Source: an uncultured Clostridia bacterium
Lineage (GTDB): Bacteria > Bacillota > Clostridia > TANB77 > UBA1234
Length of the DNA stretch: 33,393 nt
NCBI GenBank assembly: GCA_944393265.1
Contig: CALXZO010000014.1
Location: forward strand, 1 to 33,393
Direction of reading: 5' to 3'
The notes beneath the pieces were generated by a model. The model did not search any database and was not told where the DNA came from. It worked only from the letters and a program-made list of their open reading frames with translations. Below, one piece after another: positions 141 to 33,251 of this stretch (position 1 is the first letter of the stretch; each line of letters opens with the position of its first letter). The position numbers and the translations under genes were made by a program.

Positions 141-1487
141 TTAATATATATTATTTTGACTAGTTACAGCAACTGTATTATGTACAGTTGAATTTTCTGT
201 TATTACAACTTCAGCTAATGCGGAATAACAGTATTTATTATTAGGATCCCATAAACAAAAGTCTTGAATGCCTAAATCATAACCTGCTTGAATTTGTGCT
301 TTTACTTCGTTTACGCCATAAGATAAATAATTACCTGAACCTAGCCATGATGCGGTAAAGTCTTGGTAATATGGTCTTATTGTAGCCATTTTGACGGTTA
401 AGTCTCCGCTAGTATATGATTCATACCTTTCAAATGCATCTTCTAATGCATACTTGATTATAGAATACGGATTTTTATCAGGTCTAGACAAACCATATTC
501 ATTGAAATTGTAATGTGAAGGATATATCATTGGGCAAATTACATCTACAATACTTGCTATTTTAGCAAAATCTTGACCAATATTTTCAAAGTCACCATCA
601 CGTTTAGTTGTAATTGAAAATACATCGGCAGAAACAGCAACGTTATATGGCTCAAGCTCTTGCATGGCTTTTTGTAAAAAAGAATTAATCGCTTGCGATT
701 TGGTATTTGACTTAATATCTACACCATAATCAATTAAACTAATTTTCCCCTCAGATGAAGGAAAACGTATGTAATCAAATTGTATTTCTTGGAAGCCAAG
801 TTCAGCAGCTTCTTTAGCCAACGCTATTGGATATTCCCAAGAGGCTTCATTATAAGGATTCGGCCATGCGTTTCCTCTATAATCTTTCCATACAGTACCA
901 TCACTTTTTTTGTATGATATATCTGCAACCTTTGAAGCATATATAGGATCTTTAAAAGTTACTATACGTCCAATTACATAGATATCATTTTCTTTTAATT
1001 CTTTTATAACATCCTCAATATTTCTAATCATACCTCTAGAAGCCTTTATATCAATAGCAGTTTGGACTTTTGAATTGTAAGAAAGTTGACCGGCTTCGTC
1101 TTTTATATCTAGGACTACAGCATTAAAATTATTTTCTTTTATTGATTTAATCATTGATTGACGTAGTGACGGCGTTCCCATAACCCATCCGGTAGAATAT
1201 ACTGCAGCGACCGTATGAGGAACATATTCTACAGTTGAGTCGACATCTATATCTTTATCACCAGATAATGTTGTTTCTTCAATATCTTGCTCGCCGGAAA
1301 CATCATGATATTCATCGCCGGAAGAAGTATTACCAAGTTCAGAAGTTGAGCCCGATTGTGAATTTAAGGAAAGATTATCGCCAGAAACTTTTAACTTATC
1401 AGTCATGTATATTTTCTCATTAACCCCTAAAAACAAGCCAAGCAAAATAGAAAATGAAACTATTATAATGGTAAGTTTGCTATTCAT
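141..1487 (-). CDS. Putative secreted or anchored glycoside hydrolase (DUF4015 family)
   Basis: This 448-residue protein has an N-terminal hydrophobic segment (residues about 6-23, preceded by a lysine) that should anchor or export it. A low-complexity acidic/serine linker runs to about residue 85, and a TIM-barrel-like domain fills the rest. The domain carries hallmarks of the DUF4015 putative glycosyl hydrolases: a start around STGWVMGTPSLR, then VVLDIKDEAGQLSY, and the motif QFDYIRFPS. Family members are thought to act on cell-surface polysaccharide, but the substrate is not established. The start ATG is supported by GAGGTGATTTT directly upstream. The gene is alone on the left strand, ends at a strong hairpin, and diverges from the ncRNA/sigH side. 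The family call is firm; the activity is inferred. Confidence 0.82.
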   Translation of the reverse strand: MNSKLTIIIVSFSILLGLFLGVNEKIYMTDKLKVSGDNLSLNSQSGSTSELGNTSSGDEYHDVSGEQDIEETTLSGDKDIDVDSTVEYVPHTVAAVYSTGWVMGTPSLRQSMIKSIKENNFNAVVLDIKDEAGQLSYNSKVQTAIDIKASRGMIRNIEDVIKELKENDIYVIGRIVTFKDPIYASKVADISYKKSDGTVWKDYRGNAWPNPYNEASWEYPIALAKEAAELGFQEIQFDYIRFPSSEGKISLIDYGVDIKSNTKSQAINSFLQKAMQELEPYNVAVSADVFSITTKRDGDFENIGQDFAKIASIVDVICPMIYPSHYNFNEYGLSRPDKNPYSIIKYALEDAFERYESYTSGDLTVKMATIRPYYQDFTASWLGSGNYLSYGVNEVKAQIQAGYDLGIQDFCLWDPNNKYCYSALAEVVITENSTVHNTVAVTSQNNIY

Positions 1488-1597: not shown

Positions 1598-1626
1598 TTG
1601 AAAAATAAAATTGCAAATGATATAAT
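1598..1626 (+). promoter_or_regulatory. Sigma-A-type promoter of the candidate ncRNA
   Basis: TTGAAA (1598-1603) and TATAAT (1621-1626) are separated by 17 nt, a near-consensus housekeeping promoter. The predicted start is at about 1633. No gene begins in the next 500 bases, so the transcript would be non-coding or a very long leader. Confidence 0.75.
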
Positions 1627-1632
1627 ACAATA

Positions 1633-2105
1633 GAGTAAAGGGAAACCTTTACATTAGTATTGAGCGGGTTTTAAAATATAAATTCGAGATGTGTAAAAGC
1701 AAGGTATGCTTTGCAGGAAATTGATATATATGCAAATGATAATTATTCCAGAGTGAGTAATACACAAAGGAATGAAATCATTCATTTTGGTAGCAACTTT
1801 GAAAGGCAATATGGTTTTATTCACGGATTGCTGTGAGCGTTTAAATTTTAAAAGGAGAATTATTAAATAAATTTATTCGACTAGACAGTGACAATGGTTT
1901 AAAATAATGAACTAAGAATAAAGAGTATTGTGATTTCAAAGAATATTTTGTTTAGAAAAAAACTAAACAAAGTGCCAAAACGTTATAGGCAATATATCGA
2001 TGGTGGGTATACTAGTATAGTTATACTCATTATAAGGACTTGAAATAAATTAAGAGGCGTTTATTAAAGATGTGAAGGTGCATTTTTGAAAAGCGCCTCT
2101 TTATT
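1633..2105 (+). ncRNA. Candidate structured non-coding RNA, class not recognised
   Basis: This gene-free stretch has a near-consensus promoter in front and a hairpin terminator behind, with no convincing reading frame inside. The first transcribed bases form a 7-bp hairpin closed by a GAAA tetraloop (1635-1652). A helix pairs 1690-1695 with 1761-1766 and encloses the hairpins 1696-1712 and about 1716-1749. Further stems are 1770-1783, 1805-1832, 1950-1968 (6 bp, A-only loop) and 2005-2028 (7 bp). The terminator pairs 2052-2059 with 2094-2101 and is followed by T-rich sequence. I looked for the signatures of tmRNA, RNase P RNA, SRP RNA, T-box, lysine and cobalamin riboswitches and c-di-GMP (GEMM) elements and found none. 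It could be a lineage-specific RNA or two adjacent RNAs. The 3' end is inferred from the terminator. Confidence 0.5.
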
Positions 2106-2110
2106 TAAAT
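2052..2110 (+). terminator. Terminator between the ncRNA and sigH
   Basis: AAGAGGCG (2052-2059) pairs with CGCCTCTT (2094-2101) and runs into T-rich sequence. The loop is long, about 34 nt. It separates the upstream transcript from the sigH promoter at 2127. Confidence 0.65.
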
Positions 2111-2126: not shown

Positions 2127-2156
2127 TTGACTTAATAGCATAAAACCTTGTATAAT
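2127..2156 (+). promoter_or_regulatory. sigH promoter
   Basis: TTGACT (2127-2132) and TATAAT (2151-2156) are 18 nt apart. The -10 box lies inside what would be an upstream extension of the sigH frame starting at 2148. Transcription should begin near 2163, which supports the downstream GTG start at 2190. Confidence 0.75.
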
Positions 2157-2189: not shown

Positions 2190-2840
2190 GTGAATAAGAA
2201 AGTATTGGGCGAAATATCTGTTGAAGCAAATGAAAATGATAAAATAGATAAAAATGATATTAAAAGAATACGAAGCGGAAATACGGCAGTAATTAATGAA
2301 ATAATAGAAAGGTACAAAGCCTTTGTTTATGCAAAAGCAAAGCCATTTTTTATTGTTGGTGCAGAAAAAGAAGATATAGTGCAAGAAGGAATGATAGGAC
2401 TTTTTAAGGCTATTCAAAACTATGACGAGACAAAAGATGTTTCATTTAAAGCATTTGCGGATTTATGTGTTAGAAGACAGATAATGACGGCAATAAAAGC
2501 GGCGACTAGGCAAAAGCACATTCCGCTTAATTCTTATTTATCTCTTAGCAAAAATGCTTTTGACGATGAGAGTGATAAAACTGTAATGGAAGTGCTTGAT
2601 GTAGAGACGGCACCAGATCCGCTTGATACTATAACTATGCAGGAGACATATGAAAAGATAGAAACTAGAATGAATGAAGTTCTTAGTGATTTTGAGCAAA
2701 GGGTTCTAAATGAATATTTAAAGGGATGCTCTTATGCTGAAATTGCAAATTCTTTAGGTTCACATGTAAAGGCAGTAGACAATGCTGTTCAAAGAATAAA
2801 AAAGAAAGTTGATAAATATATTGTTGAAGATAAGATGTAG
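2190..2840 (+). CDS. sigH: RNA polymerase sporulation sigma factor SigH
   Basis: The sigma-30/Spo0H factor directs early-sporulation and transition-state transcription with core RNA polymerase. The 216-residue product matches the family length (about 218). It has the region 2 sequence around DIVQEGMIGLFKAI, the SigH signature TRQKHIPLNSYLSL, and a region 4 helix-turn-helix at YAEIANSLGSHVKAVDNAV. I chose the GTG at 2190 because AGGAGG lies at 2175-2180 with 9-nt spacing, and because the promoter -10 box makes the upstream ATG at 2148 unlikely. The gene has its own promoter and is followed by two tRNA genes. Its presence implies an endospore-forming or recently spore-forming lineage. Confidence 0.95.
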   Translation: MNKKVLGEISVEANENDKIDKNDIKRIRSGNTAVINEIIERYKAFVYAKAKPFFIVGAEKEDIVQEGMIGLFKAIQNYDETKDVSFKAFADLCVRRQIMTAIKAATRQKHIPLNSYLSLSKNAFDDESDKTVMEVLDVETAPDPLDTITMQETYEKIETRMNEVLSDFEQRVLNEYLKGCSYAEIANSLGSHVKAVDNAVQRIKKKVDKYIVEDKM

Positions 2841-2969: not shown

Positions 2970-3045
2970 GCTTCTATAGCTCAGCTGGCAGAGTGCGTCC
3001 TTGGTAAGGACGAGGTCACGGGTTCGACTCCCGTTAGAAGCTCCA
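2970..3045 (+). tRNA. tRNA-Thr (anticodon GGT)
   Basis: A complete cloverleaf is present. The acceptor stem pairs 2970-2976 with 3035-3041, the anticodon stem CGTCC/GGACG holds the 7-nt loop TTGGTAA, and the T-arm contains GGTTCGACTC. CCA is encoded at 3043-3045. The anticodon GGT reads threonine ACC and ACT. Confidence 0.96.
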
Positions 3046-3137: not shown

Positions 3138-3211
3138 GCAGGTGTGATTTAGTGGTAGAATGTAACCTTCCCAAGGTTGATGTGTGGGTTCGATTCCCAT
3201 CACCTGCTCCA
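3138..3211 (+). tRNA. tRNA-Gly (anticodon CCC)
   Basis: A complete cloverleaf is present. The acceptor stem pairs 3138-3144 with 3201-3207, the anticodon stem TAACC/GGTTG holds the normal 7-nt loop TTCCCAA, and the T-arm starts at 3184. CCA is encoded at 3209-3211. The anticodon CCC reads glycine GGG. It matters for the CGG observation because the loop is not expanded, so this tRNA is not an obvious four-base decoder. Confidence 0.95.
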
Positions 3212-9523: not shown

Positions 9524-9540
9524 AGGAATGAGTGTGCTTT

Positions 9541-10537
9541 ATGGCTAAGGATATTTTGTGTTTAGGAATTGAAACTAGTTGTGACGAAACTTCTGTTGCT
9601 ATTGTGAAAAATGGCAGAGAAGTTTTGTCTAATGTTATATCTACTCAAATTGAAATTCATAAAAAATATGGCGGCGTAGTGCCTGAGATAGCATCACGTA
9701 GTCATACGGAAAATATTACTTTTGTTGTACGTGAGGCGCTTGAAAGGGCTAATATGAAGTTTGAGAATATTGATATAATTGCATGTACATATGGTCCGGG
9801 GCTTGTTGGAGCATTATTAGTTGGTGTTTCTATGGCTAAGTCACTGGCATACGCGTTAAATAAACCGTTAATTGCAGTTCACCATATAGAGGGACATATT
9901 GCGGCTAATTATATAACGCATAAAGAATTAGAACCGCCATATCTTTGCCTTGTTGTATCCGGTGGTCACACACACTTGGTACATGTCAAGTCTTATACTG
10001 ATTTTGAGGTTATTGGAAAGACTCGTGACGATGCTGTTGGTGAGGCTTTTGACAAAGTAGCACGTACACTTGAACTTGGGTACCCAGGAGGCCCAATTAT
10101 TGATGAGAAAGCAAAAAACGGAGATCCAATATATCATTTACCAAGAACTTTTTTCGATAATTTGGATTTTAGTTTTAGTGGTATAAAAACGGCGGTAATA
10201 AACCTTGTACATAAGAAAGCTGTTAATGTTAATGATTTGTGTGCAAGTTTTGAAGAGGCTGTTACAGATGTATTAATTCAAAACGTTTTAAAAGCAGTTA
10301 AAATGTTAGATGTAGATAAAGTTGCGCTTGCCGGGCGGGGTTTCGGCAAACTTGTATCTTAGAAAACGTATGAAAGAAATTGGGGAGGAACATAACTTAA
10401 ATGTATATTATCCAGAAATGTCTTTATGTACAGACAATGCGGCAATGATTGCTGCTGCAGGATATTATAATTATTTAAATGGCGAGAGTGCATCGCTTGA
10501 TTTAAATGCCGTTCCAAACTTGAAAATAGGAGAGTGA
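9541..10537 (+). CDS. tsaD: tRNA t6A threonylcarbamoyltransferase TsaD, read through a +1 shift at CGG
   Basis: TsaD transfers the threonylcarbamoyl group to A37 of ANN-reading tRNAs and is normally essential. The sequence shows [14 protein letters not shown] at the N terminus, the metal-binding histidines in [17 protein letters not shown], and the C-terminal metal ligand in [14 protein letters not shown]. The frame is broken: 265 codons run from 9541 to the in-frame CGG at 10336-10338 and, read on, would end after eight more residues (273 in all). Skipping C10336 gives the family motif AGGVSAN and an intact end, 331 residues in total, normal for TsaD. All motifs on both sides are preserved, so this looks functional rather than decayed. 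The ATG at 9541 has a rather distant AAAGGA; a GTG at 9532 is an alternative start. The next gene begins 4 nt after the stop. Confidence 0.9.
10333..10339 (+). other. +1 frameshift site in tsaD (GGG-C-GGG)
   Basis: In-frame codons are GCC GGG CGG GGT. The protein continues correctly if the C at 10336 is skipped, giving GCC GGG GGG GTT (A-G-G-V). The position is codon 266. No Shine-Dalgarno-like stimulator or strong downstream hairpin is evident. Removing one G from the preceding GGG run would give the same protein, so the skipped base is ambiguous here. Confidence 0.7.
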
Positions 10538-22088: not shown

Positions 22089-23375
22089 TTATTTTTTTGG
22101 CGTTATTTTTTCAACTCCACCCATATATGGTTGTAGTGCTTTTGGAATTTTAACGCTTCCATCTTCAGTTACATTATTTTCAAGGAACGCTATAAGTCCA
22201 CGAGGTGTTGCAAACACGGTGTTATTAAGTGTGTGCACTAAATAATTTCCGTCTTTCCCTTTTGCACGTATTCCTAATCTTCTTGCTTGAGCGTCACCTA
22301 ATGTTGAGCAACTTCCAACTTCAAAATATTTTTGCTGTCTAGGACTCCAAGCTTCGATATCACACGACTTAACTTTTAAATCTGCTAAATCACCACTACA
22401 ACATTCAAGCGTTCTAACAGGTATATCCAAGTTTCTAAATAATTCAACAGTATAACTCCACATTTTATTATACCACTCCATAGATTCCTCTGGTTTGCAA
22501 AGTACAATCATTTCTTGTTTTTCAAACTGATGAACTCTGTAAATTCCTCTCTCTTCAATTCCGTGTGCGCCCACTTCTTTTCTAAAGCAAGGAGAATATC
22601 CAGTAAGTCTAACAGGAAGTTCTTCTTCTTTGACAAGTTGGCCTTTGTATCTGCCAATCATAGAATGCTCAGAAGTACCTATTAAAAACAAGTCTTCTCC
22701 TTCGATTTTATACATCATTGCTTCCATTTCAGCAAAACTCATAACACCATTGACAACATCGCTTCTTATCATAAAAGGAGGAATGCAGTATGTGAATCCT
22801 TTTTCTATCATAAAGTCTCTAGCATATGAAATCATTGCAGAATGGATTCTTGCAATATCTCCACATAAAAAGTAAAATCCGTTTCCCGAAGTTCTACCTG
22901 CGCTGTCTTTATCTAGTCCGTTAAATCTGTCCATAATGTCAGCATGATAAGGCACTTCAAAGCTAGGAACAACAGGTTCGCCGAATTTTTCTATTTCTAC
23001 ATTTTCAGTATCATCTTTTCCTATTGGAACGCTAGCATCTATTATATTGGGAATTATTAGCATTCTTTTTCTAATTTCTTCAGTTAAAGAAAACTCATCT
23101 TTTTCTATTATTTCAAGCTCTTTATTAATGTCAACAACACGAGCTTTAATCTCATTTGCTTTATCGACTTCTTTATTTTTCATGAGAATGCCAATTTCAG
23201 AACTCTTGGAATTTCTTTCAGCTCTTAAAGTATCGCCTTTAAGTCTAGCCTCTCTTAACTTGCTGTCTAAGTCAATAACTTCATCGACTAAAGGTAATTT
23301 TTGATCTTGAAATTTTTTCTTGATGTTTTCTTTTACTACATCTGGATTTTCTCTAAGAAACTTAATGTCTAACAT
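22089..23375 (-). CDS. serS: Seryl-tRNA synthetase
   Basis: This class II synthetase charges tRNA-Ser. The 428-residue protein has the N-terminal tRNA-binding coiled coil (about 25-105), then the catalytic core with motif 2 FRKEVGAHGIEERG and RVHQFEKQEM and a motif 3 region LNNTVFATPRGLIAFLEN. The serine-binding loop reads GTSEHSMIGRY where most bacterial enzymes have TAEVPLTN, so this is a divergent bacterial subtype. The C terminus ends in LQPYMGG followed by a short basic tail. AGGAGGTT precedes the ATG. Expression should be controlled by the T-box leader directly upstream, which carries a serine specifier. Confidence 0.96.
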   Translation of the reverse strand: MLDIKFLRENPDVVKENIKKKFQDQKLPLVDEVIDLDSKLREARLKGDTLRAERNSKSSEIGILMKNKEVDKANEIKARVVDINKELEIIEKDEFSLTEEIRKRMLIIPNIIDASVPIGKDDTENVEIEKFGEPVVPSFEVPYHADIMDRFNGLDKDSAGRTSGNGFYFLCGDIARIHSAMISYARDFMIEKGFTYCIPPFMIRSDVVNGVMSFAEMEAMMYKIEGEDLFLIGTSEHSMIGRYKGQLVKEEELPVRLTGYSPCFRKEVGAHGIEERGIYRVHQFEKQEMIVLCKPEESMEWYNKMWSYTVELFRNLDIPVRTLECCSGDLADLKVKSCDIEAWSPRQQKYFEVGSCSTLGDAQARRLGIRAKGKDGNYLVHTLNNTVFATPRGLIAFLENNVTEDGSVKIPKALQPYMGGVEKITPKK

Positions 23376-23390
23376 AATATAACCTCCTAC

Positions 23391-23598
23391 AAAAAAAATA
23401 TCTCCTTAGTCCAAAGGACGAGGGAGATTCGTGGTACCACCTTAGTTACTTCTTAATTGCATTGTAACCTATGCAAGCAGGTTTGACTTTCGCCAAAAAG
23501 CTCAAGAGTAGATTCGCAAAGCAATTATGCTAATTTACACCAACCATTAGCTCTCTTGAAAAATTACTTTGTTACTAGTCTCTATCATCGCAAATATT
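23391..23598 (-). promoter_or_regulatory. Serine T-box leader of serS
   Basis: Read leftward, the leader begins near 23598. It contains GATGATAGAGACTAGTA, the stem I elements AGAGAGCTAATGGTTGGTG, and the specifier loop with GAA-TCT-AC, so codon TCT (complement of 23510-23512) fits serine. The T-box sequence AGGTGGTACCACG lies at 23442-23430. The terminator ATCTCC...GGAGAT (23428-23400) ends in eight T (23398-23391). Uncharged tRNA-Ser should favour the antiterminator and switch serS on. Confidence 0.93.
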
Positions 23599-24116: not shown

Positions 24117-24145
24117 TTGATATAGATGCGCTTTTGTGATAAAAT
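24117..24145 (+). promoter_or_regulatory. mfd promoter
   Basis: TTGATA (24117-24122) and TAAAAT (24140-24145) are separated by 17 nt, with an extended TG before the -10 box. Confidence 0.75.
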
Positions 24146-24177
24146 ATCCTAGAATGTTTTATAAGAAGGAGACTGAT

Positions 24178-27100
24178 ATGACAGCATTAATAAAAGCATT
24201 ACCTAAGATGAAAAAATTTAATGATTATATAAATGATGTGAATAAGGCTAATTTTCCAATTACACTTTCTGGATTATCTGATAGTCAAAAAGCACATTTT
24301 ATTTATGCAACAAGATTTTATACAGAGAAACCAGTTTTAGTTATAACTTATAATGAAATTGAATTAAAAAAAATAAAAGAGAATATGAACTTTTTCTCAG
24401 ATGAAGACATTTATATTTTTCCTAAAAGAGACGTTATATATTACGATATAGATACGATGAATAAAGATGTAACAATGGATAGACTTAAATTATATACTAA
24501 ACTTTATAATAGTGAGTCGTGCGTTATATTAACAACTGTTGAGGCTTTAATGCAAAAGACAATTAATAAAAATAGCTTATTTAAAAATGTATTACAGTTG
24601 GAAGTCGGAGGCTCGATATTATTAGAAACATTAATTAGTAAACTAACTATATTAGGGTATGATAGAACTGATATGGTAGAAGGAAGAGGTCAGTTTTGCG
24701 TTAGAGGTGGAATTATTGATGTGTTTCCACTAGCAACTGAAAATCCTGTACGTATTGAATTTTGGGGGGACGAAATAGATTCCATAAGAGTATTTGATGT
24801 TGAATCTCAAAGAACTATAGAGGCTATAAGAGATATAAGTATTTTCCCTGCAGAAGAATTTTTAATAGATGTTGAAAAGTTAGAAGATATAGGTAATAAA
24901 ATATTAGAAAAATATCCTAATGCAATAAGCGATGTAGAGACTATAAAGAACGGAAATTATTTATCAAAAATAGATAAATATTTTGAATTTTTTTACGATG
25001 ATACATCGACTTTTTTAGATTATATTAGTGCAGATACGCTCGTGTTTTTAGACGAGTCATCAAGGATTAGTTCTAAGTGTCAAGCAATTAGCTATGATAA
25101 CGATGAGTTTGTAAAATCTTTTTTAGAAAAAAATAAAATTATTCCAAGTTACACAAATCAGATGTCTTCATATGATGACATAAGTGTGGTACTTGATAGT
25201 AAAAACCTTATCAATTTGGAAAGAATTGATACAAATATGCATGCAAAAAGAAACGGATACAGCTTTAGCTGTAGGGAGGTGAACTTTTTTCATGGTTCAA
25301 TGGATATATTTATACAGGAATTACAAGAAGCTTTTGATGCAGGGAAAACAATAGTAATATTGGGTGGGTTCTTATCAAAGGCTAGAGGCATGGCGACAAT
25401 GTTACTGGAACATAATATTCCGGCAACTTTTTATGAAACTCTTAATGATGTATCGCTTGATGAAGGCAAAGTTATTGTAACTACAGGAAGTTTATCTGAA
25501 GGATTTGAGTATATTGAATTAAACCTTATCGTGGCAACCGGGGAGTTTGCAAGTGTTAAGGAAAATAAAAGAACATATAAGCCATCAGTATTTAAGCAAG
25601 GCAAGAAAGTTGTTTTTGCAGATTTGACGCCGGGCGACTATATAGTTCACTCTATTCATGGAATTGGGCAATATGTTGGAATTAAGACACTTACAGTTGA
25701 TAAAGTTAAAAAAGATTATATAGAGCTTAGATACAAGGATGGAGATGGAATGTATATTCCAACCACTCAGCTTGATAATATTAGAAAGTACATGGGAGCA
25801 GGTGAAAGCCAACCTCGATTAAATAAGTTAGGAAGCAAGGAGTTCGCAAATACTAAGGCAAAGGTAAAAGCGTCTCTTAAAGATATTGCAAAAGGTCTGA
25901 TAGCCTTATATGCAAAACGAAAGCATCAGGTAGGATACAGTTTTTCTAAGGATACCGTGTGGCAAAGAGAATTTGAAGATGCGTTCCCTTATCAGGAAAC
26001 GGAAGACCAGTTGAGATGTATTGATGAAGTAAAAAAAGATATGGAAAGTGCAAGACCAATGGATAGATTGCTTTGTGGCGATGTGGGATATGGGAAAACA
26101 GAAGTTGCATTAAGGGCAACGTTTAAGGCTGTTATGGACGGAAAACAAGTTGCATATTTAGTTCCAACAACTGTACTTGCACAACAACAGTATGATTCTT
26201 TTAAGGATAGATTAAAGGATTATCCAGTAAAAATTGATGTGCTTAATAGGTTTAGAAGCACTAGTGAAAAAAAAGGAATTTTAAAGAAATTAAAAAATGG
26301 AGAGCTTGATATTATAGTTGGTACCCATAGAATACTCCAAAAGGATATTGAATTTAAAGATTTAGGGTTACTAATAATAGATGAGGAGCATCGTTTTGGT
26401 GTTGCTGATAAAGAAAAAATTAAACAGCTTAAGGCTAACATTGATGTATTAACGATGACGGCTACTCCTATTCCTAGAACCATGCATATGTCAATAGTGG
26501 GAATTCGTGATATGAGTGTAATTTATGAACCGCCTCAAAATAGAAGACCAGTTCAAACGTACGTATTAGAGTATGATACAGATGTTATAAGAGAAGCTAT
26601 AATAAAAGAAATTGAACGCGACGGACAGGTGTTTTATCTTTTCAACAGAGTAGAATCAATTGAGAAAAAATCAAGTGAAATTTCACAATTAGTGCCAGAA
26701 GCAAGAGTGGCTATTGCGCATGGAAAGATGACGGGTTCAGAACTAGAAAATATTATGAAGGATTTCGTAGACAAAAATATTGATGTGCTTGTATGTACAA
26801 CAATACTTGAAACTGGTATAGACATTCCAAATGCTAATACGATAATTATAGAAGATGCAGATAGATTACGGATTGGCACAGCTTTATCAGATAAGAGGAC
26901 GTGTTGGAAGAAGCAATAGAATGGCGTACGCATATATAACATATAGAAAAAATAAAGTTCTTGCTGAAGCATCAGAAAAAAGATTAAAAGCGATTAAAGA
27001 GTTTACAGAGTTTGGATCTGGGTTTAAGATTGCGCTTAGAGATTTGGAAATTCGTGGTGCAGGTAATATATTAGGTCCAGAGCAACATGGTCATATGGAA

Positions 27101-27622
27101 GCAGTAGGATATGAAATGTATTGCAAGCTGTTGGACGAGGCTGTAAAAGAGCTAAAAGGAGAGACTATTTTGCCAGAAATAGATACACAAATAGATATAA
27201 TGGTAACGGCATATATTCCATCATCATATATTTCTAATGTTAATCAAAAAATTGAAGTTTATCAAGACATTGCCAACATAGATAAAGAAGAGCAGATATC
27301 AGAGGTAATTGATGAGCTAATTGATAGGTACGGAGATATTCCAAAAGAGTTAGAAAACCTGCTAGAAATAGCAAAAATAAAAATATTAGCACGCGCACTG
27401 GAAGTTGTAAGCATCGTGCAAAAAGGAGAAAAGCTTGTAATCCAGTTTAATAATACTGAAAAAATCTTCGATGGAGCTGTGCAAATTTTAATAGATTTAT
27501 ATAAGAGCCGTGTACTTTTCTCTGCAGGAGCGGTACCTTATATAACATTTAAGTTGCAAAGTAAAAAAGATAGTGATATATTAAATGATGTTATAAAAAT
27601 ATTGAATGTGTTGAAAGGATGA
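24178..27622 (+). CDS. mfd: Transcription-repair coupling factor Mfd, read through a +1 shift at CGG
   Basis: Mfd removes RNA polymerase stalled at DNA lesions and recruits UvrA. The N-terminal UvrB-like module, a polymerase-interaction domain (about 490-560, with GDYIVHSIHGIGQYVGI) and the RecG-like translocase with GDVGYGKTEVALRA and IIDEEHRFG are present. 897 codons run to the in-frame CGG at 26869-26871; unshifted reading stops after 913 residues, before the key RGRVGR motif. Skipping C26869 gives ADRLGLAQLYQIRGRVGR and a complete C-terminal D7 domain, about 1,147 residues in all, the usual Mfd length. The ATG at 24178 is preceded by AGAAGGAGA. The foldase gene follows 3 nt after the stop. 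No other damage is seen. Confidence 0.92.
26866..26872 (+). other. +1 frameshift site in mfd (TTA-C-GGA)
   Basis: In-frame codons are AGA TTA CGG ATT. Skipping C26869 gives AGA TTA GGA TTG (R-L-G-L), which fits the conserved Mfd/RecG segment before QLYQxRGRVGR. The position is codon 898. Removing one T instead would give R-Y-G-L, also acceptable. Confidence 0.7.
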
Positions 27623-31633: not shown

Positions 31634-33251
31634 TTGTTAGGGCAGTTGCATATTAAAAATATTGGAATAATAGATGAGATTACTATTAATTTTGAGGACG
31701 GGCTTAACATATTAACTGGTGAAACCGGAGCTGGAAAGAGTCTTATAATTGATTCCATTAATGCAATAACTGGTGCGAGAATGTCAAAGGATATAATCAA
31801 ATATGGCGAAAGTATGGCACTTGTTGAAGGTGCCTTTTTTGCTGAGGATGAGACAACGATACTTACAAGAGAATTTTATAAAAATGGAAGAAGTCTTTGC
31901 AAAATAGATGGTAGAATGGTTACGCTGGCTGAACTAAAAGATATCGGCGAAAAAATGATTGATATTCATGGACAACATGATAATCAATCTTTATTAAATG
32001 ATAAGAGTCATATAAATTTGTTAGATGAATTTGCTGATATTCGGTGCTTTAAAAGAAGTGTATGTCAAAGAATTGAATGAGTATAACGAGATAAAAAATA
32101 AAATTAAGTTAAGCTATGGTGATGAGACAGAAAGAGCACGTCGCATTGATTTGTTGCAATATCAAAAAAACGAAATCGAAGCGTCTAAACTAAAATGTGA
32201 TGAAGAGGACCTTCTTATAGCGAGAAGAAATCTTATAATGAATTCTGAAAAAATTGTAAAGAGCCTTGCTAAATCGCATATTATTCTTGATGATAATGTA
32301 ATGAATGGCTTAGGAGAAGTTACATATGAGCTTTCTCAAATTTCTGAAATTGACGAGAACTATAAAAAGCTTTTAGAAAGCGTAAATGATGCTTATTACA
32401 CGCTTAAGGATGCTTCAAGTTATATTACGGGATATATAGATGAAGTTGATTTTGATGAAAGAGAACAATCTGAGATTGAAGAGAGATTAGACGTTATTTT
32501 TATGTTAAAGAGAAAATATGGAAATAGTATTCCTGAAATTTTGGAGTACCTGAAAAAAATAACAAGCGAGCTTGAAATACTTGAAAATTCCGAAGAGATT
32601 GTTGAAAAACTTAAAAAAGAATTGAGCGAAAAGGAAAAAAATTTATTGAGACTTTCAGATGATATGAGAAAAATTAGAATTGAAACTTCTAAAGTAATAG
32701 AAGAAAAGATTAATGAGCAACTTAGTGATCTTGAAATGAAAAAAGCTTTTATAAAGTTTGAATTTAAAGCATCGGAGACGTTTCTTGAAAATGGAAAAGA
32801 CATTATAAGAATAATGATTTGCACGAATGTTGGAGAAGGTCTTAAACCACTTGCAAAAATCGCATCTGGAGGAGAACTTTCACGCGTTATGCTTGCAATG
32901 AAAACAATTCTTTGCGGATATGATAATGTTCCTACAATGATTTTTGATGAAATTGATACAGGTATTAGCGGTCAGGCTGCTAATGCTGTTGCAGAGAAAA
33001 TGCAAATAATAGGAAAGACGCATCAAGTTATATGTGTAACGCATTTGCCGGTAATTGCTGCTGCTGGAAATGCAAATTATTTTATTGAAAAATTTACTAA
33101 AAATGAAAGAACAATTACGAAGATAACAAGACTTTCGGAGGAAGAGACAATAAAAGAAATCGCAAGAATTCTAGCAGGAAATGACTTATCTGAAGCAGCA
33201 TTAAATCATGCAATGGAGATGCGAAAATTAGCAAATAAAAATTTAGCTTAA
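31634..33251 (+). CDS. recN: DNA repair protein RecN, read through a +1 shift at CGG
   Basis: RecN is an SMC-like ATPase in double-strand break repair. The N-terminal part has Walker A TGETGAGKSLIIDSI and the motif MIDIHGQHDNQSL. The C-terminal part has the signature IASGGELSRVMLAMK and Walker B PTMIFDEIDTGISG, with coiled-coil arms between. 136 codons run from the TTG at 31634 to the in-frame CGG at 32042-32044; unshifted reading stops at 148 residues. Skipping C32042 gives DEFADIGALKEVYVKEL and a full 538-residue protein, close to family length. Both halves keep all ATPase motifs. AAAGAGGTG precedes the TTG and overlaps the anti-sigma gene end. The gene is last in the window and ends near a strong terminator. 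Confidence 0.92.
32039..32045 (+). other. +1 frameshift site in recN (ATT-C-GGT)
   Basis: In-frame codons are GAT ATT CGG TGC. Skipping C32042 gives GAT ATT GGT GCT (D-I-G-A). The position is codon 137. Removing a T instead would give GAT ATC GGT and the same protein. Confidence 0.7.

Follow-up and report, generated by a model that had tools for sequence, protein, structure and literature searches.

Large and intricately folded RNAs are few in bacteria, and most of them are without a known function. ROOL, GOLLD and OLE are ornate RNAs of this kind, measuring hundreds of nucleotides and combining a multi-helix fold, long-range closing helices and an orphan function (PMC12286853), features in which the RNA described here resembles them. 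Clostridia also have ModT, a structured RNA that works in trans; when it is lost, both the sigma-H regulon and sporulation are reduced (PMC11706538). A survey of structured RNAs from the human microbiome returned candidates of 27-219 bp (PMC8040213), and an RNA of 475 nt would consequently not appear there whole. The stretch of DNA analysed here (33,393 nucleotides of an uncultured Clostridia bacterium, genome G000; hereafter the window, to whose positions all coordinates refer unless another contig is named) carries what is, on sequence evidence, very probably a real stand-alone gene for a structured non-coding RNA at 1598-2106, located between a putative glycosyl hydrolase gene and sigH (Table 1). 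As a candidate it has well-marked gene ends, a fold that can be tested and a head that is conserved.

Table 1. Positions of the RNA gene, its structural elements and its neighbours in the window (P, pair probability).
Feature	Position	Strand	Basis
DUF4015 putative glycosyl hydrolase, divergent upstream neighbour	141-1487	-	Pfam PF13200, E 5.9e-110
RNA promoter TTGAAA-17-TATAAT, extended -10 (TG before -10), TGATATAAT	1598-1626	+	11/12 match
Non-coding RNA, predicted transcript of ~474 nt	about 1633-2106	+	Fold z, syntenic homologues, no start-bearing conserved frame
H1, 5'-terminal hairpin GTAAAGG-GAAA-CCTTTAC	1635-1652	+	P about 1; other stem sequence at the same place in all homologues
H2 hairpin	1665-1686	+	Position common to all four genomes
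H3 hairpin	1692-1715	+	Position common to all four genomes
P4 5' strand, pairs with 1989-2001, closes main domain	1720-1733	+	P 0.83-0.91; counterpart in all homologues
H5 side stem, less certain in G000	1735-1782	+	P 0.44 in G000, 0.87-0.95 at the same place in homologues
P6 5' strand, pairs with 1974-1980	1785-1791	+	P 0.53 in G000, 0.80-0.93 in homologues
P0 arm 5' strand, pairs with 1916-1941	1797-1822	+	P 0.95-0.99; inner 8 bp covary
Head GAUUGCURUGAGC ... GACUARAYAGUGACA	1826-1893	+	Near-invariant sequence, compensatory changes
P1 (UUGCURU/AYAGUGA)	1828-1834/1885-1891	+	Part of head
Internal loop GAG/ACUAR	1835-1837/1880-1884	+	Part of head
P2	1838-1846/1871-1879	+	Part of head
P3 hairpin, third junction arm (GGUU/AACU in G000, AACC/GGUU in G004/G005)	1896-1913	+	Two-sided change in 3/4 pairs
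P0 arm 3' strand	1916-1941	+	Pairing and covariation with 1797-1822
H7 hairpin between P0 and P6	1944-1974	+	P 0.9; counterpart in all homologues
P6 and P4 3' strands	1974-2001	+	Pair probabilities; all four genomes
H8 hairpin	2000-2033	+	In G000, G004, G005; absent in G003
Terminator hairpin (2052-2101) and U-rich tail	2052-2106	+	P 0.96-0.99
Separate sigH promoter TTGACT-18-TATAAT, 3' of RNA terminator	2127-2156	+	Sequence match
sigH, GTG start, downstream neighbour	2190-2840	+	NCBIfam NF006148 SigH, 264.5 bits (cut-off 208)

Gene boundaries and overall fold

The promoter of the RNA is of the sigma-A type as judged from its sequence, and promoters with a 17-nt spacer stand at nearly equal distance from the 5' hairpin in the related genomes G003, G004 and G005. 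A long terminator hairpin is likewise present in all homologues, and the DNA following position 2101 in G000 is T-rich. The ends of the gene are set by these sequence signals, and from them we infer its transcription; the predicted length agrees with the approximately 470 nt expected beforehand, and the homologues measure 488 nt (G003), 533 nt (G004) and 541 nt (G005). No notable reading frame was found inside the locus, as had been anticipated, and none is conserved with a start codon.

The MFE of the RNA is -124.8 kcal/mol compared to -83.7 +/- 4.5 kcal/mol for dinucleotide shuffles (z -9.1; 0/100 in G000), with z values of -7.7 in G004 and -5.0 in G003. Removal of the terminator gives z -5.7 in G000 and a range of -3.9 to -5.8 across these three genomes. 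The signals found, the fold and the homologues in three congeners uphold the original prediction of a structured RNA that has a promoter and a terminator of its own. When P1 and the first pair of P2 are imposed, the pair probabilities yield an architecture common to four genomes, comprised of H1, H2, H3, the closing helix P4, the side stem H5, the arm P6-P0, the head, H7 and the terminator. When the first 155 nt are folded without constraint, five helices coincide in position between G000, G004 and G003, and shuffles reach at most one (0/300). Stem letters differ from genome to genome, with the pairing still complete. The GAAA-capped hairpin at the 5' end had been correctly recognized, but a closed multi-branch domain proposed for 1690-1766 does not hold, its closing pair having a probability below 1e-4; the region instead folds into the H3 hairpin, the 5' strand of P4, which pairs far downstream, and the separate stem H5. 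Nor does the locus house two RNAs, as had been considered, since P4 and P6 tie the 5' and 3' halves together in all four genomes and thereby make it one.

The conserved head and the range of the RNA

The peripheral helices keep their shape and not their sequence, whereas the head keeps its sequence and holds the sole strongly conserved letters of the RNA. In alignment A3, comprised of four rows (three independent) and partly set by hand, with N spacers and a shortened P2 loop in G003 that favour the named structure, 96.4% of 112 cells in the head, a region picked because it is conserved, are paired and two-sided change is seen in 8/28 pairs; with the partner slid by 1-3 columns, only 38-52% of cells are paired and 0-3 pairs display two-sided change. 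The unconstrained fold of G003 lacks P1-P3, and its constrained fold is 3.6 kcal/mol worse. Conserved structure with compensatory changes, the mark of a structured RNA, is nevertheless found among these relatives, in which the helices are kept and the eight head pairs covary, as the original prediction would have it.

A DNA search returned core matches in the congeners G004 and G005, both ahead of sigH. The same divergent hydrolase lies on the far side in G004, and the contig of G005 ends short of the hydrolase position. A homologue in G003 is also located ahead of sigH, with the genes further upstream in another arrangement. The carriers are all draft genomes of one genus and supply three independent sequences, G004 and G005 being 90% identical; MAFFT identity among G000, G003 and G004 is 45-54%. 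Two congeners, G001 and G002, contain other genes ahead of sigH, and the covariance model R1 finds no convincing copy elsewhere in either. An RNA without a detectable copy in two of six congeners would not be essential to the genus, unless it was missed in two drafts, and the presence of carriers and non-carriers within one genus provides a natural comparison. In G007, a genome of the same family, sigH and the hydrolase are adjacent, separated by a short gap without the RNA.

Among 385 genomes of the order, R1 recovers G000, G003, G004 and G005, each with an E value of 7e-17 or lower, and over 391 genomes of the class it returns genus members only. A match of 33.7 bits in G333 was rejected for its location inside a 535-codon gene, and weak matches in G002 and G005 (C35) were rejected because P1 is broken or mostly missing in them. 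The short motif GATTRCTRTGAGC occurs in 25/385 order genomes and was set aside as non-specific, because the second motif half is absent in every matching genome outside the genus. The two-part motif, searched over GTDB genome contigs, identified two contigs only, apparently those of G004 and G005. Phage and plasmid collections yielded no match to the RNA, and a viral contig (L091) bearing a pattern match without a model match was rejected. Within the genomes searched, the RNA is restricted to one genus, although the filters of the large runs were stricter and can drop weak matches, so that more distant kin may exist. The confinement to one genus suggests that RNAs of this kind originate in single genera, or change there until they can no longer be recognized, and that they escape catalogues built on broad conservation.

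The window displays some further features of its own. A hairpin-like element, TTTCATACGGAAAGT ... CTTTCCTATGAAA, at 24-92 recurs upstream of sigH in G001 (L021 2363-2377, - strand), where it lies within a longer inverted repeat; this is possibly a small repeat element. The genes tsaD (9532-10362), mfd (24136-27622) and recN (31634-33251) each look frame-shifted, with neighbouring frames continuing the protein, probably as a result of assembly or read errors.

Linkage to sigH and explanations of the RNA

The placement first described for the RNA, between a cell-wall hydrolase gene and sigH, stands as regards sigH, and the other neighbour is corrected to the divergent DUF4015 putative glycosyl hydrolase. 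The RNA lies directly upstream of sigH and in the same orientation in all four carriers, even where the upstream genes differ (G003). A sigH promoter of the form TTGAC(A/T)-18-TATAAT is kept in five congeners, including G001, which is without the RNA. The gene spo0A is present in the carriers and also in G002, where no copy of the RNA is detectable, and the link of the RNA to sporulation is accordingly circumstantial, favoured by the carriers, which have spo0A and keep the RNA next to sigH, and opposed by G002. The sigma-A type of the RNA promoter and the absence of pairing between the RNA and the sigH start region also speak against the stationary-phase or sporulation role first suggested. 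As for G001, it has only a weak match to the Spo0A C-terminus and the RNA is also absent; sporulation may have been lost there. Other RNA elements surround sigH in the congeners. In G003, the new RNA is separated from a tRNA-Gly gene by a 6S RNA gene (L019 632-826, - strand), several stable-RNA genes being thus clustered ahead of sigH, and in G004 a glmS ribozyme occurs downstream of sigH (L002 26-176, - strand; 77.7 bits), with similar sequence at the corresponding place in G005.

The reading that we consider most likely, and to which we would give about an even chance, is that the RNA works in trans as a scaffold and binds a partner through its head. Produced from its sigma-A-type promoter to its own terminator, the RNA would act in trans as a stand-alone molecule of ~474 nt, bearing three hairpins at the 5' end and a P4-closed main domain with side stems and the long P6-P0 arm. 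The arm tip would be shaped by a three-way junction presenting UUGCURU-GAG / ACUAR-AYAGUGA together with P3, and the arm would plausibly display this head to a conserved partner, be it a protein, an RNA or a second copy of the RNA; the keeping of shape at the periphery and of sequence in the head suggests such a presentation. The RNA would then most likely be a scaffold on which a ribonucleoprotein, or an assembly of RNA, is built, like other large orphan RNAs; both its action in trans and its binding of a partner are inferences. One step further, it would be a new class of large structured bacterial RNA peculiar to one gut-clostridial lineage, forming an RNP or RNA assembly of its own that adjusts, together with sigH, how cells enter stationary phase or sporulate; this is a tentative extension and rather unlikely.

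The foremost alternative, itself unlikely, is a cis-acting leader or attenuator of sigH, in which conditional read-through of the terminator would add sigH mRNA. Its invariable position ahead of sigH, kept with differing upstream genes, is what such a leader would display, but the near-consensus sigH promoter between terminator and gene, present also in G001 without the RNA, makes a leader role improbable; an unsystematic look revealed no apparent switching anti-terminator, and the conserved sequence resides mid-RNA, not at the terminator. A base-pairing regulatory sRNA, with an exposed loop acting on target mRNAs, ranks just behind and is unlikely as well. A free-standing gene with promoter and terminator would suit it, as would the sRNA control known for clostridial sporulation (PMC10267692), but the RNA is very long and highly folded, with conserved letters mostly paired or in the junction. 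Moreover, in four genomes the duplex energy of the RNA with the start region of sigH does not improve on that of shuffled sequences, and antisense action on this region was rejected on that account.

The size class and intricacy of the RNA, with tRNA genes near (2970-3042 and 3138-3208), would also befit a selfish or phage-derived ornate RNA akin to ROOL or GOLLD. This is very unlikely given the silence of phage and plasmid collections, the lone viral-contig match lacking model support, and a housekeeping neighbourhood with vertical linkage to sigH; the ROOL model (RF03087) had no match in G000 and 17 relatives, a weak result since the control genomes gave no match either. Divergence is fast in small AT-rich genomes, and even the best RNase P RNA candidate of G000 (RF00011; C1:128553-128879) scores 55 bits, below the cut-off of 97, so a very divergent member of a catalogued family could conceivably be missed by current models. 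Permissive Rfam scans of the region and the three homologous loci nevertheless gave chance matches only over the RNA, and the usual housekeeping RNAs have loci elsewhere in the genome, with tmRNA (RF00023) at C23:380-732 (177.5 bits), so that the RNA is not tmRNA, and the sole 6S match of the genome (RF00013) on contig C4 (86.4 bits); this explanation is highly improbable. Least probable by far is an overlooked small protein or mRNA. G000 and G004 have a similar stretch of 16 residues, VLFTDCCERLNFKRRI, but it derives from the conserved RNA head, in which changes are compensatory and not codon-like, and the conserved peptide was rejected because its frame has no start codon in G004 and stops early in G003.

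Relation to known RNA families

The scaffold RNA favoured here has its closest counterparts among catalogued RNAs that it does not match. At gathering score, an Rfam scan over the window gave no match to the RNA, consistent with the lack of resemblance to known classes remarked on originally; the only matches in the window, a T-box and two tRNAs, lie outside the RNA. The T-box leader (23411-23597, - strand; 109.4 bits) is located directly upstream of serS (22089-23375, - strand). The new RNA shares with the T-box and other cis-regulatory leaders a structured RNA and terminator upstream of a gene, but it has no model match and the sigH promoter is separate, following the terminator. Like 6S RNA, it is a stand-alone structured RNA, and the 6S gene adjoins it in G003, but in G000 the two occupy separate loci and the new RNA contains no 6S match.

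The raiA motif (ModT) is also a stand-alone structured RNA of Clostridia, but the new RNA is much longer and has another genomic place, another head and no match to RF03072; this model had no match in any of 18 genomes, a weak result with the control genomes silent as well. Any parallel to the role of ModT in the sigma-H regulon is an analogy, not evidence. Compared to ROOL, GOLLD and OLE, the new RNA is shorter, has no covariance-model match and is absent from phage and plasmid collections; ROOL is found in phage or prophage near tRNA islands, whereas here two tRNA genes lie near in a housekeeping context, and RNA-only homo-oligomers are a mark of ROOL, OLE and GOLLD. It is an uncatalogued family within a known kind, the large orphan structured RNA.
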